Assembly: GCA_947366545.1 (NCBI GenBank)
Contig: CANBAL010000003.1
Coordinates: 1-55,491 of the forward strand
Length of the DNA stretch: 55,491 nucleotides
From: an uncultured Clostridia bacterium
GTDB lineage: Bacteria > Bacillota > Clostridia > Christensenellales > UBA1242
Reading direction: 5' to 3'
Shown here in pieces: positions 1 through 31,002 of this stretch (the first letter of the stretch is position 1; every line of letters starts with the position of its first letter). A program made the position numbers and the translations under genes. Under the pieces are notes generated by a model that saw only the letters and a program-made list of their open reading frames with translations, had not been told where the DNA came from and did no database searches.

Positions 1-1880
1 AGATAAAGCCCTGCAAAATTGCCTACCGACGAATCGCTATCTGAAATTGGCAGGTATTTGGTTACGCCACCGTTTGAATTATTGATTGACACTGTAATAT
101 CACTCATTGGCACATAGAGGTTGACATTATACCACTGGCTTGTCATACCATTTCTATGTACAATTCTGTATCTACCACTGCCGCTTGCGTTTTGTTTGTT
201 TACGGTGAATACCACCTTAAAGTTTACAGAATTTGTAGTATTTCCGTTTTGCTCAATTCTTGCAGTAAACCCATCGCCTTCTGTTTCAATCGACAGAAGA
301 TTGGTGCTGTCTTCACCCTCCAAAGTGAAATTGACATTTGGGTCTGCTGGGAATCTAACTGGATTAAGATTGGTGCTGTCCAGTTTTACGTTATAATCCC
401 CTGCAAATTCAAGATTTGCTGCTGTTGGAATTAGATTGAATTTTGTTTGGCAGACAGCCTTTTCGTTTTCATCCGAAATAAATTTAACTTCTACATTTTT
501 GATAGGAGATTGAACACCAGCGAGTATATACAATGTGCTTGCTGAAATTTTATCTGACCTAAAAGTCATTCCGTCTTGTGTGAAATGTACTCTGTCAAAG
601 TTGTTTGGAAGATAAAACTGCAAATCATCAAGTCTTCCGCTGATTGGGTATTTAACCTCTATTGTATAAAGTTTTGTCGCGGTTGGTATATCTGGAGTAA
701 ATTGAACAGTGTACTTCCCACCAAAAGCAAAATTATATGTGGTAAAGATGTCTTCACTATTTTCATTTGAAAGAGATTGCCCATTTTCCTTAATAACACT
801 AAGTTTCTCTATCTTCTCAAAGCAGCTGACCTTAAAGGCCTTGGTCTGATTGCTATAAGCAAGGTCTTTATATCCAAGGTCAAAGTAAACGCTAAACACA
901 TTGTTGACATAATGATTTTTAGCCTTAATCTCAAATATATAATCAGTTGTTTTTTCGTCAACATTTCTTCTTGTATCACTAAGTCTTACGCTAAGCTCGT
1001 CATTATCTTTCTTATAGTTATCTTTGTCTGCCTTATCTTTGTCATAGGCTATGTATTGCACTGGTGGTAATACCGCATCCATTGTAGGCAAACTTACCTT
1101 TACATAGACAATGTAGTTTTCGTCATTTGAAATGTTGGACACTATGCCTAAGGCTTTATCATAGTCAATCGCTGTAAAGCCTTGGCCTGAATATGACATT
1201 GATAAATCGCCGACTATTCCTAATGGTTCCATAACAGCAAGTTCCACAGGGGCATCATCAACGCCCTCCACAGAAGCAACTAGTTTGATTACTGGCTCGC
1301 CATACTCCGCACTTACTGTCAAAATATCTCCGTTGAGAGAAATTAAGCCGTCTTCAACAAAACTATTAAATTCATTATCAATTTTCCAAGTTACATCCCC
1401 TCTCGCATCTTGAGCAGGTTCTTTCTTAACAAGGAGGTTTGTGCTAAGTTCATTGTCCTGTCCTTTTATGACATAAGCGTGGCTTTTATCTGGGTTTTGG
1501 CTAATTGATGTTGTGCGATTGTATACTGACACAGAAATAGTAGACGATACGGTTGCATCATCTTTGCTTGTAACATATATTTCGGCGTCACCTTTTCCTA
1601 CTGCTTTTATGGTGATAACATTTCCACCAGCAACGGTTGAATACTCCGCAGTTGCAATGGCAGTATCAGGGTAGTTTGAAGAAACTGATACCTCCCCTCT
1701 ATCAATGCCCTTTACTGTTGCAACTACTGTGGTAACCTTCTCACTGTCATCATTAAGACAAATCTCAGTGTGGGTGTCGCTAAGTTCAATAGAAAGTTTT
1801 GGCGTATCGCATGCTGTGAACGCCAAACTTCCGCCAAGAAGAACAATCGTACTTAAAAGTCCTAGCCAAAACTTTTTCAT
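1..1880 (-). CDS. Secreted lipoprotein with bacterial Ig-like repeats (C-terminus outside window)
   Basis: An open minus-strand frame runs from the ATG at 1880 to the window edge without a stop (about 626 codons), so the gene is truncated by the window only. AGGAGG lies at 1885-1890. The N-terminus is Lys-Lys, a hydrophobic stretch, then LAFTAC, a somewhat atypical lipobox (Phe at -3), so lipidation at this Cys is probable but not certain. Residues about 25-110 resemble a Big_2 (Ig-like) domain: a VTVKG-type strand, an ATAEYS strand and a closing KAVGKGDAEIYV strand. Further beta-rich, Ser/Thr/Asn-rich segments without obvious catalytic motifs follow. It is probably a cell-surface adhesin or structural lipoprotein. 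The opposite strand also has short open frames, but they lack ribosome sites. Confidence 0.85.
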   Translation of the reverse strand, partial: MKKFWLGLLSTIVLLGGSLAFTACDTPKLSIELSDTHTEICLNDDSEKVTTVVATVKGIDRGEVSVSSNYPDTAIATAEYSTVAGGNVITIKAVGKGDAEIYVTSKDDATVSSTISVSVYNRTTSISQNPDKSHAYVIKGQDNELSTNLLVKKEPAQDARGDVTWKIDNEFNSFVEDGLISLNGDILTVSAEYGEPVIKLVASVEGVDDAPVELAVMEPLGIVGDLSMSYSGQGFTAIDYDKALGIVSNISNDENYIVYVKVSLPTMDAVLPPVQYIAYDKDKADKDNYKKDNDELSVRLSDTRRNVDEKTTDYIFEIKAKNHYVNNVFSVYFDLGYKDLAYSNQTKAFKVSCFEKIEKLSVIKENGQSLSNENSEDIFTTYNFAFGGKYTVQFTPDIPTATKLYTIEVKYPISGRLDDLQFYLPNNFDRVHFTQDGMTFRSDKISASTLYILAGVQSPIKNVEVKFISDENEKAVCQTKFNLIPTAANLEFAGDYNVKLDSTNLNPVRFPADPNVNFTLEGEDSTNLLSIETEGDGFTARIEQNGNTTNSVNFKVVFTVNKQNASGSGRYRIVHRNGMTSQWYNVNLYVPMSDITVSINNSNGGVTKYLPISDSDSSVGNFAGLY

Positions 1881-2100
1881 CTTTCCTCCTTGTTTAATGT
1901 TTGTAATTTGGAAACAATCATCCCTTCAAAAATCACAAAATTAAACTTTATGTAAAAAGTATAGTTTTGCTGGAGAAAATTGTCAAATAAATTACTAAAA
2001 TTATTATTAATAAAATAATAAATATTATTTGCATAAAGTAATATTTTTTAGCAAATTTTTATTTCCTAAAAAAATCAAAAAATTTAATTTTTATTTTTTA

Positions 2101-2129
2101 TTGCAATTTTTAATTAATTTTGCTATATT
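2101..2129 (+). promoter_or_regulatory. Sigma-A-type promoter for the TtcA-like gene
   Basis: TTGCAA (2101-2106), 17-nt spacer, TATATT (2124-2129). The predicted start near 2136 leaves a leader of about 15 nt containing the GAGGCGG ribosome site at 2141-2147. The rest of 1881-2150 is AT-rich with no other recognisable feature. Confidence 0.7.
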
Positions 2130-2150
2130 TTTCTTGAAAAGAGGCGGTTT

Positions 2151-2855
2151 ATGCAAAAAATACTAAGTGCATTACGAAAGGTATGCCAAGAAAACAACTT
2201 AATTGAAGACGGTGACAAAATTGCGGTAGGAGTGTCAGGGGGCAAGGATAGCCTTGTACTTTTGTCCGCTCTTGCCCGTTACAGAAATTTTAGTAAAGAA
2301 AAATTTGACATTGTGGCTATAAGTGTTGACCTTAGTGGCGGCCAAATGGATTACAGCAAAATAAGGGCGTTTTGTGGGGAGATAGGAGTGGAGTTTCATT
2401 TGGTGCCTTCAAATGTCTTTGAAGTGGTTTTTGACCTGAAAAAAGAGAAGAATCCTTGTAGTTTATGTGCAAACATGAGACGCGGTATTTTGAATAGTAA
2501 GGCAAAAGAACTGGGATGCAATAAAGTGGCGTTAGGGCATCACAAAGATGACCTTATTGAAACTTTTATCATTTCACTTTTCTTTGAAGGGCGCTTGTCC
2601 ACCTTTAAACCTATAAGTTATCTATCTAATACAGACCTCTATGTTATACGCCCCCTTCTTTATTCAAGTGAGCAGGAAATCATTTCTGCAAGTGCAAGTC
2701 TTCCAGTTTTACAAAACATATGCAAAGTGGACCACAAAACGCAGCGAGAAAAAGCAAAAGAAATATTAAAAAAATTCGATGAAAAATACCCCGATTCAAA
2801 AAATAAAATATTTAATGCAGTTATTCACAAAGAAAGATATAATTTATTTGATTAA
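2151..2855 (+). CDS. TtcA/TilS-family PP-loop tRNA-modifying enzyme
   Basis: A 234-residue ATP-pyrophosphatase of the N-type PP-loop superfamily, closest in layout to TtcA, which makes 2-thiocytidine at tRNA position 32 through an ATP-adenylated intermediate and an iron-sulfur cluster. Seen: the PP-loop SGGKDS at residues 29-34, the CSLC pair (Cys103, Cys106) followed by a RRGILN segment, the LGHHKDD motif near 128-134, and a third cysteine (Cys191) in ICKVDHKTQRE, matching the third cluster ligand of TtcA. It is shorter than E. coli TtcA, as is common for Firmicute homologues. The start has GAGGCGG and its own promoter, so it is transcribed alone. TilS is less likely because TilS lacks the CxxC pair. 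Confidence 0.85.
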   Translation: MQKILSALRKVCQENNLIEDGDKIAVGVSGGKDSLVLLSALARYRNFSKEKFDIVAISVDLSGGQMDYSKIRAFCGEIGVEFHLVPSNVFEVVFDLKKEKNPCSLCANMRRGILNSKAKELGCNKVALGHHKDDLIETFIISLFFEGRLSTFKPISYLSNTDLYVIRPLLYSSEQEIISASASLPVLQNICKVDHKTQREKAKEILKKFDEKYPDSKNKIFNAVIHKERYNLFD

Positions 2856-2868
2856 ATAGAAAATTAAA

Positions 2869-2908
2869 TAAAAAATCGAAAAAAATTAATTATTTTTCGA
2901 TTTTTTTA
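2869..2908. terminator. Bidirectional intrinsic terminator
   Basis: A-rich arm with ATCGAAAAA and its complement TTTTTCGAT, with A and T tracts on either side, between convergent genes ending at 2855 and 2918. It can serve both strands. Confidence 0.75.
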
Positions 2909-2917
2909 TTATTTTTT

Positions 2918-3451
2918 TTAATTTCTGCAATTAATTATTCTAATTTCTATTGCATTTTTTTGAGAATTTATTAACGTAATTATCTCCGAAATTTCTCTGT
3001 TTACTTCTGCTGTGAAGCCCCCTCTTGAAAGAGTGTTTGCCACCACCAGCATGTCGTCAAGATAACCATTTACCGTGCGAAACCCAGTACAAATATTTCC
3101 GCCAAGCACAGGCAGCGGTAACCTTTGACAACGGCAATTATTTCGCCCGCCTAATCTTACGCTGACACTAAGTGCAAGTTCAGTCACCCTATCATTTTCA
3201 CTCATTAGTGTCAAAAAAATAGGGTCGAAGTTAATTGAGTATAATGGCTGGTATAGTAGATTTAATATCTTTGACATTTTATAAAGCCTGCACGCAAGCA
3301 CCACACCCTCTTCGTTACTTATGGGATTATTCACAGGTGCTGGCGTAGGCCTTGGCGTTACCACTGGCTGTGGCTGAGTAGTAGGCTGCGGAGGAGTCGG
3401 ATTTTCAATCAACACCTCTGTCCTATTATCTAAATTATGTATATTTATCAT
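2918..3451 (-). CDS. Unknown protein with proline-rich N-terminal linker
   Basis: A 177-residue protein that I do not recognise. Start ATG at 3451 with GGGAG five to six bases upstream. Residues about 15-45 are Pro/Thr/Gln-rich, a disordered linker of the kind seen in surface or spore-coat proteins. The rest is mixed helical, with several cysteines in a short stretch (NNCRCQR, then NICTG) and a final NCRN. There is no signal peptide or membrane segment. It stands alone, convergent with the TtcA-like gene and divergent from gpmI, with 41 bp between its start and the gpmI promoter. A coat or structural role is only a guess. Confidence 0.65.
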   Translation of the reverse strand: MINIHNLDNRTEVLIENPTPPQPTTQPQPVVTPRPTPAPVNNPISNEEGVVLACRLYKMSKILNLLYQPLYSINFDPIFLTLMSENDRVTELALSVSVRLGGRNNCRCQRLPLPVLGGNICTGFRTVNGYLDDMLVVANTLSRGGFTAEVNREISEIITLINSQKNAIEIRIINCRN

Positions 3452-3492
3452 TTTTTCTCCCTACAAATATTTATATGCATATTACTATCGGT

Positions 3493-3522
3493 TTGACAAA
3501 GCATGATGAAAAGATATAAAAT
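3493..3522 (+). promoter_or_regulatory. Promoter of gpmI
   Basis: TTGACA (3493-3498) with a -10 of TATAAA at 3515-3520 (16-nt spacer) or TAAAAT at 3517-3522 (18-nt spacer). It lies downstream of an in-frame ATG at 3503, so that ATG cannot be the translation start. Confidence 0.75.
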
Positions 3523-3541
3523 ACTGTTATTAGGAGAAATT

Positions 3542-5041
3542 ATGGTAACACTCGTAATTTTAGACGGCTTCGGCCTTTCTAAAAAGAAATTTGGCAATGC
3601 GATAAAAGCGGCAGGAACACCTAACCTCGACAAACTTTTAAAGATGTATCCACATACCGAGTTGGAGGCAAGCGGCGAGGCGGTAGGCCTTCCGGATGGA
3701 CAAATGGGTAATTCCGAGGCTGGACACTTAACTATTGGAAGTGGAAGAGTTGTTTTACAAGACTTAAAACTTATTGACACTGAAATTGCAAATGGCAACT
3801 TTTTTAAAAATCCCGCCCTTATTAAAGCAATGAGGCATGCAGAAAAGAACAAATCCAATCTTCACATTATGGGAATAATTTCAGACGGACGAGTGCATGC
3901 TGATATCGCGCATCTTTTTGCAATACTTCGTCTTGCTAAAAACTATGATATACCTCACATATATATTCACGCCTTTCCTGATGGCAGAGACACTCCACCC
4001 AAAAGTGCAAAAAAATACATTTCGGAGTTAGAAAACATTATCTCTGGTACAAATGCAAGTATTGGCACAGTTGTTGGCCGAGTTTTACTTGACCGAGAAC
4101 TGAGATACGATAGAGTACAGAAAATGTATGACCTTCTTGTTTTTGGAAAGGGAGAAAAGGCAAAAAGTGCAATGGATGCTGTGAAAACAAGTTATCAGCG
4201 CGGTATCACAGATGAATTTATTGAGCCTTTTGTTATTGGTGAAAACGCTCGCGTGCAGGACGGCGACAGTTTAATATTCTATAATTTTCGAACGGATAGA
4301 GAGCGTGAGATTACTTTTGCGTTCACCGATCCTAAATTTAAGGAATTTAAAACAAAAAAGCTCAAAAACTTTCTTTTCACTCAAATGGTGCAATATGCTG
4401 ATAATTTAGCACACTTAAACACTGCGTATCCACCTAAATCTGTGGATAACAATCTTGCCGAAATTCTTTCAAAAGAGGAAAAAACTCAATTCCATATTGC
4501 CGAAACTACAAAATACATGCATGTTACCTATTTCTTCAATGGGATGTCAGATGTTCAATACAAGGGAGAAACTCGAAAACTGATTGACACAATAGACACA
4601 AATAGTTATGCGTATTATCCTAAAATGCGTGCACTTGAAATTACAGAAAACACCCTTGACGCGATTGCATCAAATAAATATGACTTTATACTTGTAAACT
4701 ACTCTAATCCTGATATGGTTGGGCATACCGGCAATTTTGAAGCGACAAAAGAGGCAGTCACCTGTGTAGAAAAACAGGCATACGCTTTGGCTCTCGCCAC
4801 TCTTATGGCTGGTGGAGAATGTATTATCACCGCTGACCATGGTAACGCAGAAGAAATGATTGACAAGGATGGCAACCCTATCACTTCACACACAACCAAC
4901 AAAGTGCCTTTTATACTTGTAAGCGAGAAAAATAAAAAAACGAAACTGAAAAAACATGGCACCCTTGCAAATATCGCGCCTACCATTCTTAAACTTATGC
5001 ACCTTGAGGCTCCAAAAGATATGGAAAAGCCACTCTTCTAA
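3542..5041 (+). CDS. gpmI: 2,3-bisphosphoglycerate-independent phosphoglycerate mutase
   Basis: Glycolytic, Mn-dependent enzyme interconverting 3- and 2-phosphoglycerate through a phosphoserine; cytosolic. The 499 residues are the usual family length. Seen: LDGFG with metal-binding Asp8, the phosphorylated serine in GNSEAGH (Ser58), DGRVHADIAH, FPDGRDTPP, the GRVLLDRELRYDR segment, NFRTDRERE and the second metal cluster TADHGNAEEM. The start at 3542 has AGGAGA upstream; a longer in-frame start at 3503 is rejected because the promoter overlaps it. The gene is monocistronic; in many Clostridia gpmI sits in a gap-pgk-tpi operon, which is absent here. Confidence 0.97.
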   Translation: MVTLVILDGFGLSKKKFGNAIKAAGTPNLDKLLKMYPHTELEASGEAVGLPDGQMGNSEAGHLTIGSGRVVLQDLKLIDTEIANGNFFKNPALIKAMRHAEKNKSNLHIMGIISDGRVHADIAHLFAILRLAKNYDIPHIYIHAFPDGRDTPPKSAKKYISELENIISGTNASIGTVVGRVLLDRELRYDRVQKMYDLLVFGKGEKAKSAMDAVKTSYQRGITDEFIEPFVIGENARVQDGDSLIFYNFRTDREREITFAFTDPKFKEFKTKKLKNFLFTQMVQYADNLAHLNTAYPPKSVDNNLAEILSKEEKTQFHIAETTKYMHVTYFFNGMSDVQYKGETRKLIDTIDTNSYAYYPKMRALEITENTLDAIASNKYDFILVNYSNPDMVGHTGNFEATKEAVTCVEKQAYALALATLMAGGECIITADHGNAEEMIDKDGNPITSHTTNKVPFILVSEKNKKTKLKKHGTLANIAPTILKLMHLEAPKDMEKPLF

Positions 5042-22230: not shown

Positions 22231-24531
22231 CTACTGCTGGAAGATTTTAACCACAAGCACCGTCATATCATCCACGGCGTAACCATTATTACTTAAAAGT
22301 GCTTTTTCAAGTATCGCATTTGCAAACTCCTGTGGGTTTGCAGTTTTTATTGTCATAATATAGTCCTGCATTTCCCCGTCACTTCCAAAAGCGTCACTTA
22401 CGCCGTCACTACATATAACTATAAAATCCTTTTCGCCGACAACCACCTTTTTAGTTAAAGCGTTTGCATTTTGTATAACGCCCACGGGTAGTGCCCCGCC
22501 CTCGATTATTTTACACTCTTCACTACTCCTGATATAGGAGGACGGTGAGCCCATTTTTACGAAATCAGCAATTCCACTCCTTAGATCCACCACACAAATG
22601 TCAAGTGTTGAGAATATCTCATCCTTTTCAAGGTTTAATAATTGATTTACGCTTGAAAGAATTGTCTCATTATCAAACCCCGCCTTGTAGAAATTCTCAA
22701 TAAGGCCTATTGCCGTCTCACTCTTTTCGCTTGCTTTGTCGCCAGAGCCCATACCATCACAAACCGCAAACATGAATTTATCGCCATCAAGCCTTAATAC
22801 TGTATGACAATCCCCCGACACCGTACTTCCAGATTTGTTTTGATTGGCAAGTCCAAACACGCAGTCATATCTTGACGCTGTTTTTAAATTGATTGTTTTA
22901 AGTCCGGCTTTGGAAGAAGGATAAACCTCGTACGGCATCATCTTGTTTCCGCACACCTTACTTACAACCTCGCGTAGTTTCATTCTGTCAACATCTTCGT
23001 CACGAACTATGAGTGAGGCCATCATTGTTCTGGCATCTTTTTCGTACACGACTGCATCAGTACAAATGATATTATTGTAGGCAAGTTCGTCAATGATTTT
23101 ATTCTCCCTTACCGCATCAAAAGATACAAGTAGGTCTACCTCTTTTGCAAGCCCTTTCATAATGTTTGAGATGCCGCCAAGTTGCTCGGCAATCAACATT
23201 TTGCTGGTGTCAACATTGCCAACAAGGGAGGAATAGTTTTTATACTGGCTTGTAAGTGTGTTAATTTCCCCGATTAGCGCATTCGTCTTTCCACAACGCG
23301 AGGTAAGATAACTTGGTATATCAAGCAAGGTGATTTTTCCCTTTTCGAGCGAAATTTGAATAAGCTCCTCAAACATATTTTTAGTGTCAGCACTAAAAGT
23401 CCTGTGACAATGCTTATACTCGGGGCAGCCCTTACATATCTGTCCGCGCACCTCCTCAAAAAGCATGGTTTTAACTTCTTCCTCGCTGAGGGACTGCTTG
23501 ATAAGTTTTCGAAACACGCTGTCCATATCGCAGAAGACCTCGCTTAAATTGTTAAGCCGTCTTGAAAGCACTTCGCGATTTCTATTGACAATGTTTTTCA
23601 TTGCTAAGCGGTCCGAATTTGATGATAGAAGCACCGCGATTTGGTCGTACCACTTGGTTGGCAACACAACAAAAATTAAACACCCTATTACCACCGGCAG
23701 AATTTCTAGCCATGTGTAAGAATAATACAAAGTGAAATAGTAGCCACAAAGAAGTTCGCTTATTACAAGTGCCAAGGCAGGGAATATTCTAGTGCGAGAG
23801 CGAAGTGCGGTGATTGCAAGCGACCAGACAACCATTGGCGCGACATACACCGCGTTGTTTGAGCCAAGCATGGTGCCAAGTCCTAATACCCCTGCAAGCA
23901 GGCAGGCGTTGTAACCTTTTGTAGTATAGGAAACGCAAAGCAGCAAAAATGGAATAACTAACTTTAGAAATGAAAAGCCCGCCAAAGTAAAGCCCGCAAG
24001 GCCATCGCTTAAAATTGCAAAGATGATTGCCCCACAAATCAGTTCGCTGCTTGTGAGTTTGTAGGCAAAACCGCGAATAATAAGCGGCTCAAAAATATGT
24101 ATGCACGCCGCCATAAATGCAAGGCCCACTATGGCGTGAGCTAAAATTAAAATCCAGTGCACCCCGCCTATTGCACTAAAAACGATAGTTGCAGTTTGGC
24201 TTAGGGCGGCATAGATGTAAACTTCCCATTTAAACATATTCTTTTTGCAAAGCACATGAATGTAGTAAGGCAATGCACAAACAAATACTGCGACTAATGC
24301 GGCAATAATATTCTCAAAAGTCTGGCTGTAAGCAATACTTGCAATGAAATATGCGGGACAGACAAGCCACACCTTTTGGTTAGCCCACACAAGAGCAAAC
24401 ATCATTCCAAAAGCAAACGGAGTTACAACTCCCCTTATACTTGCAAATTGCAAGACAAAAAATAGCCCTATAAAAAGCAGAAAGACCAGAGCGTATTGAA
24501 GTTTTTTGTTAGACCTGAAAATATTTTCCAT
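22231..24531 (-). CDS. spoIIE: Stage II sporulation protein E (PP2C phosphatase)
   Basis: A 766-residue membrane phosphatase that dephosphorylates the anti-anti-sigma factor SpoIIAA and so activates sigma-F in the forespore. Residues about 10-300 hold some ten membrane helices; a central cysteine-containing linker region (CKGCPEYKHCH) follows; the C-terminal PP2C domain shows SGDCHTVLRLDGDKFMFAVCDGMGSGDKASEKS and VICSDGVSDAFG with the metal-binding aspartates. The start at 24531 is chosen because a TATAAT box ends six bases before it (leaderless type); a longer in-frame start at 24612 lies upstream of that box. Confidence 0.95.
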   Translation of the reverse strand: MENIFRSNKKLQYALVFLLFIGLFFVLQFASIRGVVTPFAFGMMFALVWANQKVWLVCPAYFIASIAYSQTFENIIAALVAVFVCALPYYIHVLCKKNMFKWEVYIYAALSQTATIVFSAIGGVHWILILAHAIVGLAFMAACIHIFEPLIIRGFAYKLTSSELICGAIIFAILSDGLAGFTLAGFSFLKLVIPFLLLCVSYTTKGYNACLLAGVLGLGTMLGSNNAVYVAPMVVWSLAITALRSRTRIFPALALVISELLCGYYFTLYYSYTWLEILPVVIGCLIFVVLPTKWYDQIAVLLSSNSDRLAMKNIVNRNREVLSRRLNNLSEVFCDMDSVFRKLIKQSLSEEEVKTMLFEEVRGQICKGCPEYKHCHRTFSADTKNMFEELIQISLEKGKITLLDIPSYLTSRCGKTNALIGEINTLTSQYKNYSSLVGNVDTSKMLIAEQLGGISNIMKGLAKEVDLLVSFDAVRENKIIDELAYNNIICTDAVVYEKDARTMMASLIVRDEDVDRMKLREVVSKVCGNKMMPYEVYPSSKAGLKTINLKTASRYDCVFGLANQNKSGSTVSGDCHTVLRLDGDKFMFAVCDGMGSGDKASEKSETAIGLIENFYKAGFDNETILSSVNQLLNLEKDEIFSTLDICVVDLRSGIADFVKMGSPSSYIRSSEECKIIEGGALPVGVIQNANALTKKVVVGEKDFIVICSDGVSDAFGSDGEMQDYIMTIKTANPQEFANAILEKALLSNNGYAVDDMTVLVVKIFQQ

Positions 24532-24537
24532 ATGGCA

Positions 24538-24543
24538 ATTATA
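24538..24543 (-). promoter_or_regulatory. -10 box of spoIIE, leaderless type
   Basis: Minus strand TATAAT followed by six bases and ATG at 24531. The -35 region is weak (CTAGTT at 17 nt), consistent with a promoter that needs an activator. Confidence 0.6.
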
Positions 24544-24594
24544 CCTTTTTGCTACTGTAAAACTAGAACAAAAAACTGTTTGTTTTTGGGCTTT

Positions 24595-24613
24595 CTTGTC
24601 ACATAATGACAAG
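24595..24613. promoter_or_regulatory. Palindrome upstream of spoIIE
   Basis: CTTGTCA-5 nt-TGACAAG, 64 to 82 bases before the spoIIE start and directly after the terminator of the gmk-type gene. It could be an operator. It only partly matches the Spo0A box TGTCGAA. Confidence 0.4.
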
Positions 24614-24614
24614 A

Positions 24615-24642
24615 CAAAAAAGTCGCCCTAGCGACTTTCTTT
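24615..24642 (-). terminator. Terminator of the gmk-type gene
   Basis: AAAGTCGC / GCGACTTT with the TAG stop codon in the loop, followed by T-run on the minus strand. Confidence 0.8.
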
Positions 24643-25170
24643 TAAAAACTTCTCTATTACTTTAATTGTCTTCTCCATGTCAAGGTTTTCTATTACAAGG
24701 TCATAATCCTCTTTGCGCGCACGTTCCATGCCGCCACGGGATAGCCTAACCCTAGCACGTTCCTCACTTTCGCCTCTGTCAATCAACCTTGTATAAAGCA
24801 CTTCGTCTGGGGCTTCCAAGAAAATTGAAACCGCCCTTGCCCTGCCGTTGAAATATTCCCTTATTTTTGCATTACCATTTACATCAATGTCTTTAATATA
24901 GTCGTTATGGGTATCGCTTATTATCATATCAAGGTCTTTGTTAAGTGTGCCATAGTAGTCACCATGCACCTCTTCCGTTTCAAAAAACTCATCATTAGCC
25001 TTCCTTTTCAAAAACTCATCTTTTGAAAGGTACAGATAATTATTCTCCCCCTCTCTTCTTGCCCGTGTTGTTGCAGATTTGAAATATTTGAGGTTATTTC
25101 GCCTCTCAATAAGTTTTTTGATTATTGTGTTTTTGCCAACCCCTGATACTCCAGATACTATAATTAACAT
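24628..25170 (-). CDS. gmk: Guanylate kinase family protein
   Basis: A 180-residue P-loop kinase of the guanylate kinase family (GMP + ATP to GDP + ADP). Seen: P-loop SGVSGVGKNT, with Asn where most enzymes have Gly or Ser; KSATTRARREGE; EFFETEEVHGDYYGTL, the GMP-binding region; IDVNGNAKI; and FLEAPDEVLYTRLIDRGE with the lid arginines. The start is taken at 25170 (ATG) with AGAGGTGG upstream; a GTG two codons earlier overlaps that site. It sits between cwlD and spoIIE, away from the usual rpoZ/yicC neighbours, so a second, canonical gmk elsewhere is possible and this copy may have a specialised role. Confidence 0.85.
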   Translation of the reverse strand: MLIIVSGVSGVGKNTIIKKLIERRNNLKYFKSATTRARREGENNYLYLSKDEFLKRKANDEFFETEEVHGDYYGTLNKDLDMIISDTHNDYIKDIDVNGNAKIREYFNGRARAVSIFLEAPDEVLYTRLIDRGESEERARVRLSRGGMERARKEDYDLVIENLDMEKTIKVIEKFLKESR

Positions 25171-25228
25171 AACCACCTCTTAGGCTAATTATATTACCAA
25201 ACTTTCTCATAATTGGCAAATAAAATTG

Positions 25229-25927
25229 TTACATTTCATAAAAATTCAGTATTCCACAAAGCAAACTATAACAAAAGTTTTCTTTATACTTTTCTGATAT
25301 TAAAAGGTTTTCTTCCTCCGCATTTGAAAGAAATCCGCACTCAACAAGTATTCCTGCTTTACTTGTGCAATTTAAAACATAGTAGTCGCCAACCTTTACT
25401 GTTTTCTTCGCATAATCAATGCTTTGATGTAGGGCGTTGCCTACCCTTTCCGCAAGGACCTTGCCGCTTTCATTGCCGTCCGCATAATATACCTGCGCTC
25501 CCCGTGCGGAAGGAAGAGGAAAACTATTCATATGAAGACTGACAACAAGGTCGGCTCCACTACTTTCAATTATCTGCCTTCGCTTTTCCATTTCACTTTT
25601 CTTCTTATTAGGCGCTGAGATTGAGTATAGCCCATTCATATCACTACGCGTCATTACCACTCTAATCCCAAAGTTTTCACAAAGTGATTTTAACTCCATG
25701 GCATATTCAAGATTAAGATGACTTTCATCAATCCCTGACACCTTGCCCACCGCACCGCCGTCAATCCCGCCATGCCCCGCATCAATCACAATAGTATGCA
25801 CCGGCTTTGGCGTAGCACTTGCCTTGATAGGAAAATATGTCCCACAAAACACACCTATTGCAAGAACGCATAACAAACCGACAACTATTGCCCTCTTCTT
25901 AATTGTAAGAAATTTAATTTTTCTCAT
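25229..25927 (-). CDS. cwlD: N-acetylmuramoyl-L-alanine amidase, CwlD-like
   Basis: A 232-residue zinc amidase (Amidase_3) with an N-terminal membrane/signal helix (about 12-35). CwlD cleaves the peptide from muramic acid in the spore cortex, the first step of muramic-lactam formation needed for germination. Seen: zinc ligands in IDAGHGGIDGG (His), GIDESHLNLE (Glu) and VSLHMNSF (His), and the catalytic Glu in LVECGFLSN. No extra cell-wall-binding repeats are present, as in CwlD. No ribosome site is visible; a TAGAAT box ends six bases before the ATG. The spoIIE gene nearby supports a sporulation role. Confidence 0.88.
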   Translation of the reverse strand: MRKIKFLTIKKRAIVVGLLCVLAIGVFCGTYFPIKASATPKPVHTIVIDAGHGGIDGGAVGKVSGIDESHLNLEYAMELKSLCENFGIRVVMTRSDMNGLYSISAPNKKKSEMEKRRQIIESSGADLVVSLHMNSFPLPSARGAQVYYADGNESGKVLAERVGNALHQSIDYAKKTVKVGDYYVLNCTSKAGILVECGFLSNAEEENLLISEKYKENFCYSLLCGILNFYEM

Positions 25928-27600: not shown

Positions 27601-27630
27601 TTGACAAATAAAGGCTAATTTGTGTATCAT
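27601..27630 (+). promoter_or_regulatory. Leaderless-type promoter of the HAD/SpeD fusion
   Basis: TTGACA (27601-27606), 18-nt spacer, TATCAT (27625-27630), six bases, ATG at 27637. No ribosome site. Confidence 0.7.
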
Positions 27631-27636
27631 TCTATC

Positions 27637-29154
27637 ATGAAAACTCAAGACATTTATTTATTTTTAGACTGGGTTATGACGGTTAACGAACTTGTTATTA
27701 ATGATAAAATTGTAAAAAGCAAGTTTAACAGTTTTGTCAACGCAATTGAGAAATTGGAAACCGCAAATAACGCAAAAGTCCGCCTTATTATCGTTTCAGG
27801 CACAAAAGCGTCCAGCGCACAAAAAAGATTTAACATTTTAAAGCAAGCCTTGCATGAGATAGAAAGGGAGGATCTGCTTTTAGGTTTTGCTTATGAATAT
27901 GGGGCATACATGATTGATAAAACAAATCAAATTATAAAAATGTTAGAAGCCCCTCTTCTCCCAAAGCAGTGGCAAAAGATACAAACGATAACAAATTCTT
28001 TTGGCTATGAGATTAACAAAGACTACAAAACCTTTTTTAATGTTGAATTTGATTGTTTCGACGAACAAGCGAAAAGATTTCTTGACCGTTGCAAGAAAGA
28101 GTTGCCGGAGCTAGATTTTGAAGTTTATGATGATAAATATGGACACGGCATTGACATTAAAAACTTTAAACTAAATAAAGGCGACTTTATTGACTTGTTC
28201 CTAAAAAAATATACTGACAATAATCCATATATGATTATTGCAGGTGGAGATAGTCAGCAAGATGTGAAAATGTTGTCACCGCAGTATAATTGCGAAAAAT
28301 ACTTTATTGGTTTTTCTAATATGCAAAAAGAGTCTTTGCAAAACGCTATTTTAAGTAAAAAACCTAATGTTGACGGAATTATAGATTGCCTTGAAACGAT
28401 TAGTAATTTCAGAGTTGTCCATTACGCTTTTGATATTTCAGATATAAAACAAAACGCAAACAACCTCTTATCTTGCTATAAATGTTTTGAAGATTTTTCT
28501 GCTAAATTTGGCTTAACACTTCTTGAAAAGCCTCAAATTATTCCTTATTATCATGGGAAGGTGAAAGACGATGCGGGAATCAGTCTGTTTGCATTTCTAT
28601 CCCCTATCGGCCATATTACTATGCACAATTTTGAAGTGCTAAGGAAATCATATATTGATGTTTTCACAAATAAATTATTTGATATAGATAAAATAAAAGA
28701 CTTTTTCACGGCATTTTTTGACACCCATTCAATAGACGCACAAATTCTTAATCATTCAGGCACTCAAAAAAAGAAATCTGCTTTCGGTCCACATGCGATT
28801 GTAAACTATTCCACACGAAAGAACTATACCCTCCAAAATGTCTTTGATTTTTTATTAAATCTTCCAGATAAGATTGGCATGACACCCATAACGCTGCCTT
28901 TTGTTTATGAATCTCCCGAAGTGATAATGGGAATAAGGCTTATTGCGGAGTCCCACATTTCATTTTACTATGTCAAAAATAAATTTATTGCTTTTATTGA
29001 TATTTTTAGTTGTGTAATGGACTCACTGGATCAAATAAAAAATGAACTTACAAAAGCATTCCCTAACTGCAAAATCTTAGTGAACATCCGAGGGGGAAAA
29101 TATGAAAAACATAAGCCTTTGGGTGGAAAAACACAACTTAAAAAGAAGCAGTGA
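27637..29154 (+). CDS. Fusion of HAD-like domain with two S-adenosylmethionine-decarboxylase-like domains
   Basis: 505 residues in three parts. Residues 1-255: HAD fold of the Cof type, with nucleophile Asp11 in FLDWVMTV (Val13 replaces the usual second Asp), Ser54 in IIVSGT, and the Asp cluster GGDSQQD (Asp205, Asp209). Residues about 258-375: first SpeD/AdoMetDC-like repeat, where the self-cleaving Glu-Ser is replaced by Ile324-Gly325, His330 is kept and the Cys position is Asn345. Residues about 383-490: second repeat with AESH (candidate pyruvoyl precursor Ser439) and Cys459, but Tyr444 in place of the catalytic His. Ser-to-Cys spacing of 20 equals that of bacterial SpeD. A pyruvoyl decarboxylase acting on AdoMet or another amino acid is plausible. 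The start is set by the promoter against it. Confidence 0.8.
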   Translation: MKTQDIYLFLDWVMTVNELVINDKIVKSKFNSFVNAIEKLETANNAKVRLIIVSGTKASSAQKRFNILKQALHEIEREDLLLGFAYEYGAYMIDKTNQIIKMLEAPLLPKQWQKIQTITNSFGYEINKDYKTFFNVEFDCFDEQAKRFLDRCKKELPELDFEVYDDKYGHGIDIKNFKLNKGDFIDLFLKKYTDNNPYMIIAGGDSQQDVKMLSPQYNCEKYFIGFSNMQKESLQNAILSKKPNVDGIIDCLETISNFRVVHYAFDISDIKQNANNLLSCYKCFEDFSAKFGLTLLEKPQIIPYYHGKVKDDAGISLFAFLSPIGHITMHNFEVLRKSYIDVFTNKLFDIDKIKDFFTAFFDTHSIDAQILNHSGTQKKKSAFGPHAIVNYSTRKNYTLQNVFDFLLNLPDKIGMTPITLPFVYESPEVIMGIRLIAESHISFYYVKNKFIAFIDIFSCVMDSLDQIKNELTKAFPNCKILVNIRGGKYEKHKPLGGKTQLKKKQ

Positions 29155-29160
29155 TTTTTC

Positions 29161-29189
29161 TTGACAAATATTTTTGTTTTAATGATAAT
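29161..29189 (+). promoter_or_regulatory. Leaderless-type promoter
   Basis: TTGACA (29161-29166), 17-nt spacer, GATAAT (29184-29189), six bases, ATG at 29196. Confidence 0.65.
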
Positions 29190-29195
29190 TATGTT

Positions 29196-29783
29196 ATGAA
29201 GATGTTAATGTGTTTAATGATGCTGTTTACAGGTGCGGTAAGCGGAACGCAGGTGAGTGTTGTGGCTGATTTTTGCTATCTTTACTCCTCACCTAGTTTT
29301 GAAGAGGTTGTTGAATATGAAGGCTCGCCTTTAAGGATTGAACATTTGGACTTCCTAACCGTACTTGAAGATGATGAAACAACGCAATTTATCAAAGTGA
29401 AAGTAGAAGAAAAAAATATTGAAGGTTATGTATACCGCTACTATGTTACCTATTCCTCCCCTTCGCAAGAGGTATACCCTGTGTTTAACGGAAAGGTTAC
29501 AAAAAATGATGCGGTTATCTATGATTTGAACAGAGTAGACAGCACCTATCGTGCAAAAAATGGACAGGGAATATACCTTTATTCTGGATTTACCGACAAA
29601 GAGAAGATGAACGCCGTGGCAATCGTGCTTGATGACGGCAGCCTTTATTACGGCTTTATGGAAACAAAAGATATTGCACCTAATGGTGTTAATGGTGGAC
29701 TTATCACTGGGATTATGGTAATAGTGTCCTGCCTTACCATTATTTTCCTGCTACTTTTTATGAAGAAAAAGAAACGGCACTAA
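29196..29783 (+). CDS. Membrane-anchored protein with SH3-like domain
   Basis: A 195-residue exported protein: short signal sequence (MLMCLMMLFTGAVSG), an extracytoplasmic part with a bacterial SH3-like beta fold (VVADFCYLYSSPSFEE, then FIKVKVEEKNIEGYVYRYYV), a second beta segment (residues about 100-160), and one C-terminal membrane helix followed by KKKKR, so the protein faces outward and is held by its C-terminus. SH3b domains often bind peptidoglycan peptides. It starts 42 bp after the fusion gene, with its own promoter but no ribosome site. No link in function to the upstream gene is evident. Confidence 0.75.
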   Translation: MKMLMCLMMLFTGAVSGTQVSVVADFCYLYSSPSFEEVVEYEGSPLRIEHLDFLTVLEDDETTQFIKVKVEEKNIEGYVYRYYVTYSSPSQEVYPVFNGKVTKNDAVIYDLNRVDSTYRAKNGQGIYLYSGFTDKEKMNAVAIVLDDGSLYYGFMETKDIAPNGVNGGLITGIMVIVSCLTIIFLLLFMKKKKRH

Positions 29784-29786
29784 CTA

Positions 29787-29815
29787 TTGCAAAGGTGAAA
29801 AACTCATGTTACACT
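29787..29815 (+). promoter_or_regulatory. Promoter of the coiled-coil protein gene
   Basis: TTGCAA (29787-29792), 17-nt spacer, TACACT (29810-29815), then AAGGAG before the ATG at 29836. Confidence 0.65.
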
Positions 29816-29835
29816 CCTTTAAAAAGGAGAAAGAC

Positions 29836-31002
29836 ATGAACGATATTAAACAAATAAATAGTACGATTGAACAACTAAAAAAAGAGGTATGGTATATAGC
29901 CAAAGTTTCTATTCCTGACATATTGAAGGCACTCGGAAATCTTGCTATGCCTAACCTTGATGACATCAAAGCGGACATTAATGAAAACAGCGATAAAATA
30001 ACCGCTCTTGAAAGCAGCGTAACGGGGCAGGCGAGTACGATTAACGCAATGAACGCCAAACTTACTAGCCAAGAAACAAGCATAACAAATATAAACAATG
30101 AGTTAACCACACAAGACAAGCGTATTGATGGCTGTCAAAGTGTAGCAAATGGAAATACTGCAGCAATCAATGCCTGCCTAAGCAGCATCAATGCGGTTGA
30201 TGACAGAGTAATGGAATGTGAGGAAAACCTTACTTCTTGCCAAAACGCAATAAGCACAATAAACCCTAAGGTAACCACGCTTGAAAGCACTGTGGCTACT
30301 CATGGTACAAAACTGAAAACTGCCGAAAGCACTCTTAATACTTTAAGCACAAATCTTACCGAGGTGACAAACGCCCTTAACGACACAATAAGCCTTGTTG
30401 GGGATTTGTCTGAGGCTATGCAAGGAGTACGCACAACAGTGTCCTCCCATGTTAATACACTTTCCACTCATGATAGCCAAATTTCTGCACTTACAACAAA
30501 AGTGACAAATCTTGAAACCCTGTTTAACGAGCATCAGCAAAGCTTTACCACATGGAAAAATAGTGTTGACAGCGCAATAGCTAATCTTCAAAATAGTGGC
30601 GGGCAAGGCGGAGGCACTACCCTTGACCTTATTTATGACAACACCAGCACCGACGCTGCGATAAATCGTGGCTTTACCGCAGGACTGGTTGGCGGAAACT
30701 CTTTTGACTTTGATTTCTCATCTTACAAAAAAGTCCATGTGTATGCTGGACTTAACAAGAATGACGCATACACCGTTATCAATCTTGAAAAACGCAGATA
30801 TGCCGAAGGCAACCTTATGGCTGTATCGGTGGGCGCAAATAGAATTATGAACATGAAAGTCAACATTACTCCTGCTAAAAACCGATTTGTTGTCAACCAA
30901 CTGGCTTGGTTTGAGGCAAACCTTACAACAGGAGCGATTAGTTTTACTAGAGACAAGGGCAATGTCGCGTATTTTGTTTATAGAATTGAAGGAGAAAAAT
31001 AA
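29836..31002 (+). CDS. Coiled-coil fibre-like protein with C-terminal beta domain
   Basis: A 388-residue protein resembling a phage tail fibre or trimeric adhesin stalk. Residues about 45-250 are long heptad/undecad repeats rich in Thr, Ser, Asn and Leu (patterns such as ITALESSV, VTTLESTV, ISALTTKVTNLE). A GGQGGG linker at 255-260 leads to a beta-rich C-terminal domain of about 125 residues (DLIYDNTSTD to VYRIEGEK) that could be a receptor-binding knob. No signal peptide is present, so export, if any, needs another route. AAGGAG precedes the ATG; the in-frame ATG at 29806 overlaps the promoter. No other phage or tail genes are nearby. Confidence 0.75.
   Translation: MNDIKQINSTIEQLKKEVWYIAKVSIPDILKALGNLAMPNLDDIKADINENSDKITALESSVTGQASTINAMNAKLTSQETSITNINNELTTQDKRIDGCQSVANGNTAAINACLSSINAVDDRVMECEENLTSCQNAISTINPKVTTLESTVATHGTKLKTAESTLNTLSTNLTEVTNALNDTISLVGDLSEAMQGVRTTVSSHVNTLSTHDSQISALTTKVTNLETLFNEHQQSFTTWKNSVDSAIANLQNSGGQGGGTTLDLIYDNTSTDAAINRGFTAGLVGGNSFDFDFSSYKKVHVYAGLNKNDAYTVINLEKRRYAEGNLMAVSVGANRIMNMKVNITPAKNRFVVNQLAWFEANLTTGAISFTRDKGNVAYFVYRIEGEK

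Follow-up and report, generated by a model that had tools for sequence, protein, structure and literature searches.

Tandem SpeD-like proteins with a probable composite pyruvoyl site, one of them fused to a HAD-like domain

A gene encoding HAD-like and SpeD-like domains

The window, by which we mean the whole stretch of 55,491 nucleotides that was analysed, comes from an uncultured Clostridia bacterium. At 27637-29154 (+) it carries an open frame of 505 codons that begins with ATG; an alternative GTG start at 27622 (+) would give a protein 5 amino acids longer. Stops interrupt the opposite strand throughout, leaving no coding frame there. The original prediction placed a HAD domain and two consecutive SpeD-type repeats in this chain, and profile searches agree with that layout: Pfam AdoMet_dc matches the whole 505-amino-acid protein significantly (E 5e-13, 49.8 bits, cut-off 25) in two stretches, and HAD profiles match weakly. 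Searched alone with AdoMet_dc, after division at slightly different points from those listed below, the repeats give 24.2 bits (repeat 1, E 4.6e-5, marginally below the cut-off of 25) and 32.5 bits (repeat 2, E 1.2e-7). The equivalog model for class 1b SpeD, TIGR03330, gives 25.7 bits, below its cut-off of 75.65. The parts of the gene are as follows.

27637..28404, + strand: HAD domain of divergent Cof/IIB type, residues 1-256, from profiles and the standalone relatives L002 and L003
28405..28776, + strand: SpeD-like repeat 1, the putative His donor, residues 257-380, from the AdoMet_dc profile and alignments
28777..29151, + strand: SpeD-like repeat 2, with the predicted pyruvoyl site, residues 381-505, from the AdoMet_dc profile and alignments
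28624..28626, + strand: codon of His330, the invariant putative processing His from repeat 1 (39/39 aligned sequences)
28951..28953, + strand: codon of Ser439, the predicted cleavage site and pyruvoyl precursor (39/39 aligned sequences)
29011..29013, + strand: codon of Cys459, the predicted proton donor (39/39 aligned sequences)

No in-frame ATG, GTG or TTG lies within residues 246-275, and the HAD and tandem parts, as assembled in this contig, are therefore presumably translated as one chain. GC content is 0.33, 0.32 and 0.35 for the HAD domain, repeat 1 and repeat 2, and 0.37 for the window. An artefactual join at the fusion point was considered and judged unlikely, as base composition shows no sign of one and the junction in the assembled contig has no in-frame start.

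Site residues divided between two repeats

Processing and catalysis in T. maritima AdoMetDC involve S63, H68 and C83 (PMC10407285). Class 1b SpeDs hold the equivalents of these three residues in one copy, as do six of six single-domain phage comparators; in the window protein they are instead split over the two repeats. Repeat 2 has E438-S439-H440 at its site and Cys459 at +20, with Y444 at the His68 position. Repeat 1 has G325 at the pyruvoyl Ser position and N345 at the Cys83 position, with H330 at the His68 position and S316 at the position of T. maritima Ser55. All residues listed in the original prediction (V13, G325, H330, N345, S439, Y444 and C459) were found as written, and D312, G314, F332, D455, F457 and R485 are also retained. 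Shuffling residues 257-505 200,000 times gave the ESH and +20 Cys spacing by chance in 47 cases.

We aligned first 30 and then 39 different tandem sequences, the window protein included. Two broken or cut genes, L064 (present also as L005, L010, L016, L020 and L023) and L065 (also L006, L011 and L017), were left out of both alignments, of the counts and of the tree. In the 39-sequence alignment, complementary site residues are present across the two repeats of one chain: S316 and H330 of repeat 1 are found in 39/39 sequences, as are S439 and C459 of repeat 2, and position 325 is Gly in 38/39, with Ser in L047. The second His, at +5 in repeat 2, is retained in just 34/39, being replaced in the window protein, L046, L061 and L062 and gapped in L063, which suggests that it is dispensable where repeat 1 supplies the processing His. 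The Ser at the Ser55 position, invariant here, is not always essential, since the S55A protein of T. maritima still becomes activated (PMC3975893).

The predicted structure of the tandem part (residues 256-488) has a pLDDT of 84.5 and a pTM of 0.84. In Foldseek comparisons, one half of this model matches T. maritima AdoMetDC 1tlu (TMt 0.78, rmsd 2.2). With the human ester intermediate 1jl0_B both halves align, but loosely (TMq 0.51, rmsd 7.8, E 5e-3), and spermine synthase and RnlA rank higher as matches. The idea of a fused pseudo-dimer with one composite pyruvoyl site, put forward from the sequence at the outset, is well supported by the complementary residue loss across the family, with further support from the tandem model and from these fold matches, the human one being a loose one.

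We propose that repeat 2 would cleave itself before Ser439, giving predicted chains of 50.7 and 7.8 kDa, and that this Ser would become the pyruvoyl group. Repeat 2 would also contribute Cys459, and repeat 1, its own site lost, would contribute the processing His330 and the Ser55 equivalent Ser316 from within the same chain, so that H330 and S439 may meet in one site. The His lost from repeat 2 (Y444) would belong to a second site that is already without its Ser, and its replacement should therefore cost little.

Relation to known fused SpeD proteins

One-site fused SpeD pseudo-dimers are already known, in eukaryotes and, as SpeD joined to a degraded SpeDC, in bacteria. The initial claim that no protein of this design had been described must therefore be withdrawn: eukaryotic AdoMetDC has the residue split (PMC1282579, PMC3975893), and a bacterial SpeD fusion has been published (PMC10407285). 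One half of the eukaryotic enzyme provides the pyruvoyl Ser and the Cys, the other half the processing His; in prokaryotic AdoMetDC a single copy holds both sets of residues, and a pair of identical molecules makes up the holoenzyme (PMC1282579). Human Ser229 and His243 are site residues of the half other than the pyruvoyl half (PMC3975893), and the ester intermediate of the human H243A variant is reported to be cleaved by hydroxylamine. The window protein resembles these class 2 enzymes (human, potato) in its two homologous halves in one chain, its split residues and its probable single pyruvoyl site. It is unlike them in that the predicted pyruvoyl Ser stands in the C-terminal repeat rather than the N-terminal half, the substrate is probably not AdoMet, and a HAD domain is added.

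Bacterial SpeD-SpeDC fusions also have two class 1b-like domains, one of which has lost active-site residues. The fusion of Victivallis vadensis has a degraded C-terminal copy (PMC10407285); there a true AdoMetDC comes first and the degraded copy second, whereas here the degraded copy comes first and, unlike in such fusions, both repeats resemble SpeDC-like protein. SpeDA and SpeDC are arginine and ornithine decarboxylases with the SpeD fold, some of them found with SpeB or AguA (PMC10407285, PMC9992855). As in these, the SpeD fold of the tandem proteins has probably been turned to an amino-acid substrate; unlike these, which are single-domain apart from the SpeD-SpeDC fusions, one site here would be built from two copies.

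The terms Bacillota, Firmicutes and Clostridia do not occur in the main text of PMC10407285. In the literature, covered mostly at the level of titles and abstracts and thinly for subscription journals, we found no account of the degraded-first order, of a tandem family in Bacillota, or of a fusion of tandem SpeD to agmatine deiminase or to HAD, and the literature search gave no paper that combines haloacid dehalogenase, S-adenosylmethionine decarboxylase, fusion and SpeD. The tandem proteins would add to the cases in which a SpeD dimer became one chain with one site, here with the order reversed and with halves that look more like amino-acid decarboxylases than like AdoMetDC. For the origin of the eukaryotic enzyme, SpeD-SpeDC fusions whose second copy is degraded have been offered as a model (PMC10407285), and the tandem family could serve as an independent comparison for the origin of eukaryotic AdoMetDC from such a fusion.

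Distribution of the tandem family

Tandem SpeD proteins are a protein family, found mostly in Bacillota. A search with the whole protein found matches in 8 of 101 genus genomes: the tandem part is matched in G039, G083, G092 and G100 besides the window genome, the HAD part in G073 and G100, and two further matches are short weak segments. Four of 197 genomes in the family sample have a match, with those of the window genome and G167 covering the tandem part. Searches with the tandem alignment matched 17/396 order genomes and 10/398 phylum genomes, the window genome included in each case. A scan of named contigs gave 18 tandem loci, eight of them labelled Clostridia and one Cloacimonadota, the rest being mostly from Bacillota, Bacilli or Mycoplasmatota-type MAGs. 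Fusions to deiminase aside, the other tandem proteins are lone, at ~270 amino acids (frames of about 248-315). Homologues of the three-part fusion were to be sought according to the original prediction, and this search uncovered the tandem family but found the HAD fusion in the window genome only. In the tree, the window protein forms a long branch (3.25) whose placement is not firm.

No tandem or HAD relative was confirmed on viral contigs, and P0001 and one tandem query had no match among plasmids. In phages, P0001 and a tandem query matched three records each and a phage SpeD query 29; the five phage records inspected hold single-domain SpeDs. A viral or plasmid origin was rejected on these results. 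In Microcystis phage MaAM05 (L083), an AdoMetDC-type and a SpeDC-like SpeD homologue stand next to each other, with SpeE after them.

Genes adjacent or fused to tandem SpeD

Neighbouring genes were examined at 31 tandem loci outside the window, with L064 and L065 counted. An agmatine-consuming gene is adjacent, upstream in a gene row, or fused at 18 of the 31. An arginase-family gene lies directly upstream on the same strand at six (L048, L049, L050, L053, L055 and L057), that of L050 being recognised by our own-built profile only. Agmatine deiminase is fused at three (L061, L062 and, in two frames, L064), and lies upstream in a shared gene row at eight (L051, L054, L056, L058, L059, L060, L073 and L074). 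A SpeB-type gene occupies the upstream position in this row at one locus (L076). The L065 frame ends too early to tell whether a deiminase was fused, and neither kind of gene was seen at 12 loci (L052, which is cut, L063, L066-L072, L075, L077 and L078).

Against the agmatinase model TIGR01230 (cut-off 174.3 bits), L049, L053 and L055 pass, and L048, L057 and L076 score 158-159 bits, below it. The fused deiminase part of L061 scores 350.8 bits against TIGR03380, below the cut-off of 381.8, and 290 bits against Pfam PAD_porph PF04371 (cut-off 25). Separate deiminases at L079 and L074 are also below the TIGR03380 cut-off, with 310.1 and 298.8 bits. In eight phylum stretches other than L110, our own profiles marked none of the retained frames as SpeB or AguA, which is a weak negative because the tandem frame of L109 was itself lost to an overlapping longer frame.

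Tandem SpeD and agmatine deiminase form one chain of ~600 amino acids in L061 (5989-7797) and L062 (1221-3026), which are from sister species in the window's genus; two more sister genomes have the gene with a broken frame or cut short. Such a chain would carry arginine to N-carbamoylputrescine within one protein.

In one sister species, the tandem-deiminase gene (L009, identical with the L061 gene) is flanked by relatives of two genes of the window and has the opposite orientation. These relatives are cwlD (54% identity over 99 residues) and a gene for a small SH3-like membrane protein (35% identity over 114 residues). The shared flanking genes imply that a tandem gene occupies the same chromosomal place with different fusion partners: an N-terminal HAD in the window and a C-terminal deiminase in the sister species. 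The two tandem parts are 30% identical over 201 alignment columns.

In the window, the gene for the SH3-like protein overlaps the end of the 505-amino-acid gene by 4 bases and is followed by a gene for a 398-amino-acid coiled-coil protein (29151-31002); a coiled-coil protein, recognised by eye, is also encoded beside the tandem gene in L009. At 22231-25927, spoIIE, a guanylate-kinase-like gene and cwlD are adjacent, and sporulation genes are thus retained in a much reduced genome of 0.95 Mb.

Candidate substrates

The composite site would decarboxylate a basic amino acid and not AdoMet. The tandem family is probably a pyruvoyl-dependent amino-acid decarboxylase, with the conversion of arginine to agmatine as its most likely reaction. 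On speH_1 and L084, two SpeDC-like phage comparators whose activity is itself inferred from gene context and sequence, the profiles of the two repeats reach 74-87 bits, against 23-34 bits on three SpeDs of AdoMetDC type; on L091, from a Sinorhizobium phage, they reach 32.0 and 44.2 bits. The position four residues past the processing His, which we take to be that of the ribose-binding Glu in class 1b SpeD, is V334 in the window protein, directly after E333, and Glu in 3/39 sequences. Ribose is reported to be bound by a Glu that ends the processing-His strand (PMC1282579). No match to Spermine_synth PF01564, the profile for spermidine synthase, was found at E<=1e-3 in the window genome (97% complete). 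Among genus genomes, 41 of 101 match this profile, all at <=32.4 bits in frames of 168-238 amino acids, and we take these to be probably other methyltransferases.

The reading that we prefer, at a probability of about 0.6, is a one-site pseudo-dimer that acts as a basic amino-acid decarboxylase, with arginine the most likely substrate in the family, and carries an N-terminal HAD accessory. For the window protein itself, ornithine is a real alternative to arginine. The protein might be a pyruvoyl-dependent ornithine decarboxylase that yields putrescine directly, its substrate having shifted where an agmatine-consuming enzyme is absent, since its own genome has neither an agmatine deiminase (PF04371) nor an arginase-family protein (PF00491), and PMC10407285 uses the absence of agmatine-consuming enzymes as a sign of SpeDC. 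By the same rule, the tandem genes of 10 further draft genomes (81-96% complete) with no PF04371 or PF00491 match could be ornithine decarboxylases. The corresponding sign of SpeDA, SpeB or AguA in the genome, is missing from the window genome and is adjacent or fused in 18/31 relatives. A preference for ornithine would also suit the high scores of the repeats on SpeDC-like phage proteins, one of which stands beside an AdoMetDC-type SpeD and SpeE. We nevertheless consider this shift doubtful, because L061 and L062, from the same genus, carry a fused agmatine deiminase and the L061 gene, as L009, occupies the same chromosomal place.

It is improbable that we are looking at a decaying gene or a catalytically dead product, left in a reduced genome as the relic of a tandem decarboxylase that was joined to a HAD gene. 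The long branch and the HAD fusion, seen in no other member, would fit decay, as would Glu at position 333, where 23/39 sequences have Pro, the absence of the W..N tail that most lone relatives have, and the state of the gene in two sister genomes (L005, L006), where its frame is broken or cut. However, the frame of 505 codons is intact, the ten residues S316, H330, S439, C459, D312, G314, F332, D455, F457 and R485 are all retained, and the confidence of the tandem model is good. Still less probable is a fused one-site AdoMet decarboxylase for spermidine synthesis as in eukaryotes, which would share its fold and kind of residue split with eukaryotic AdoMetDC and would suit a tandem gene directly before SpeE and SpeB in L110, but which is opposed by the lack of a Spermine_synth match in the window genome and the weak matches in the genus, by the far higher repeat scores on SpeDC-like than on AdoMetDC-type comparators, by the ribose Glu position not being retained, and by the agmatine-consuming enzymes at 18/31 loci. 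In L110 itself (1868-4653), the tandem gene is followed in a row by SpeE (361 bits) and SpeB (321 bits), both clear matches, so AdoMet may still be the substrate in that clade.

The HAD domain

The HAD domain would be an accessory fused at the N terminus of the tandem part, and probably no ordinary phosphatase. The assignment of residues 1-256 to HAD, made from sequence profiles, appears real but weak: TIGR00099 (Cof) matches with E 1.3e-5 and 25 bits against a cut-off of 137, and Hydrolase_3 PF08282 with E 0.0014 and 18.9 bits against a cut-off of 20.9. The whole-protein model has a mean pLDDT of 67.3, with the HAD part mostly poor past residue 86, and matches the HAD structures 3gyg (E 3.7e-4) and 1nf2 (E 6.9e-3). 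A profile of the HAD alignment compared with solved structures matched guanine nucleotide exchange proteins only (best E 0.0024), which we judged to be chance and rejected.

Standalone relatives of the HAD part, L002 and L003, are 255 and 261 amino acids long and 37% identical to it, and have no Pfam match at E<=0.01. D11, T15, S54, K181, D205 and D209 are common to all three proteins. Like Cof-type HAD-IIB hydrolases, the window protein has D11, S54, K181, D205 and D209 at what we take, by eye, to be the HAD motif positions; unlike them, it lacks the second Asp of motif I, and its family scores are all below cut-off. Motif I reads D11-W-V13, and L002 and L003 have F and Y at the place of the second Asp, so the predicted absence of this Asp is confirmed and extends to both relatives. 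Loss of the second motif I Asp, which usually serves phosphatases as acid/base, makes ordinary phosphatase activity unlikely.

HAD relatives occur in 3/112 genus genomes, the window genome included; at E<=1e-15 in the order, the window genome was the only one of 297 to have one. The HAD-tandem fusion itself is found in 1/112 genus genomes, that of the window. The HAD domain therefore does not belong to the general design as first conceived, as it is absent from all other tandem proteins found. In G100, HAD and tandem-deiminase are encoded by two separate genes, which indicates that the fusion is needed for the existence of neither part. Both standalone genes, at 1-792 in L002 and 2669-3742 in L003, lie near a gene for a conjugative coupling protein of VirD4/TraG type, a hint of a mobile element.

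A two-step enzyme, in which HAD acts on the decarboxylation product or its precursor, is a quite unlikely arrangement. If it were true, HAD would take the place of the deiminase fused in the sister species, and the protein would make a modified agmatine or polyamine by an undescribed route.

A recurrent gene row containing tandem SpeD

Twenty loci (L051, L052, L054, L056, L058, L059, L060 and L066-L078) share a recurrent gene row. A protein of ~650 amino acids, which we call U650, and a ParA-like ATPase with a KGG-type motif are encoded in 20/20, and a protein of ~770 amino acids, U770, in 18/20, followed by tandem SpeD; agmatine deiminase or SpeB is upstream in 9/20. Among the members scanned, U770 reaches the cut-off of no profile in Pfam, NCBIfam or PADLOC, and U650 of none in Pfam; neither has a convincing PDB match. 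The row of U650, ATPase, U770 and tandem SpeD is possibly a signalling or conflict system, and the tandem family links polyamine chemistry, if our substrate assignment is correct, to this ATPase gene row, itself uncharacterised, which in some loci has TIR proteins close by. These TIR proteins are found in L066 and, more weakly, in L074 and L079, and a DUF4062 protein in L060. Other neighbours of the row in some loci are CorA-like proteins, or radical SAM and PEP-synthase-like proteins.
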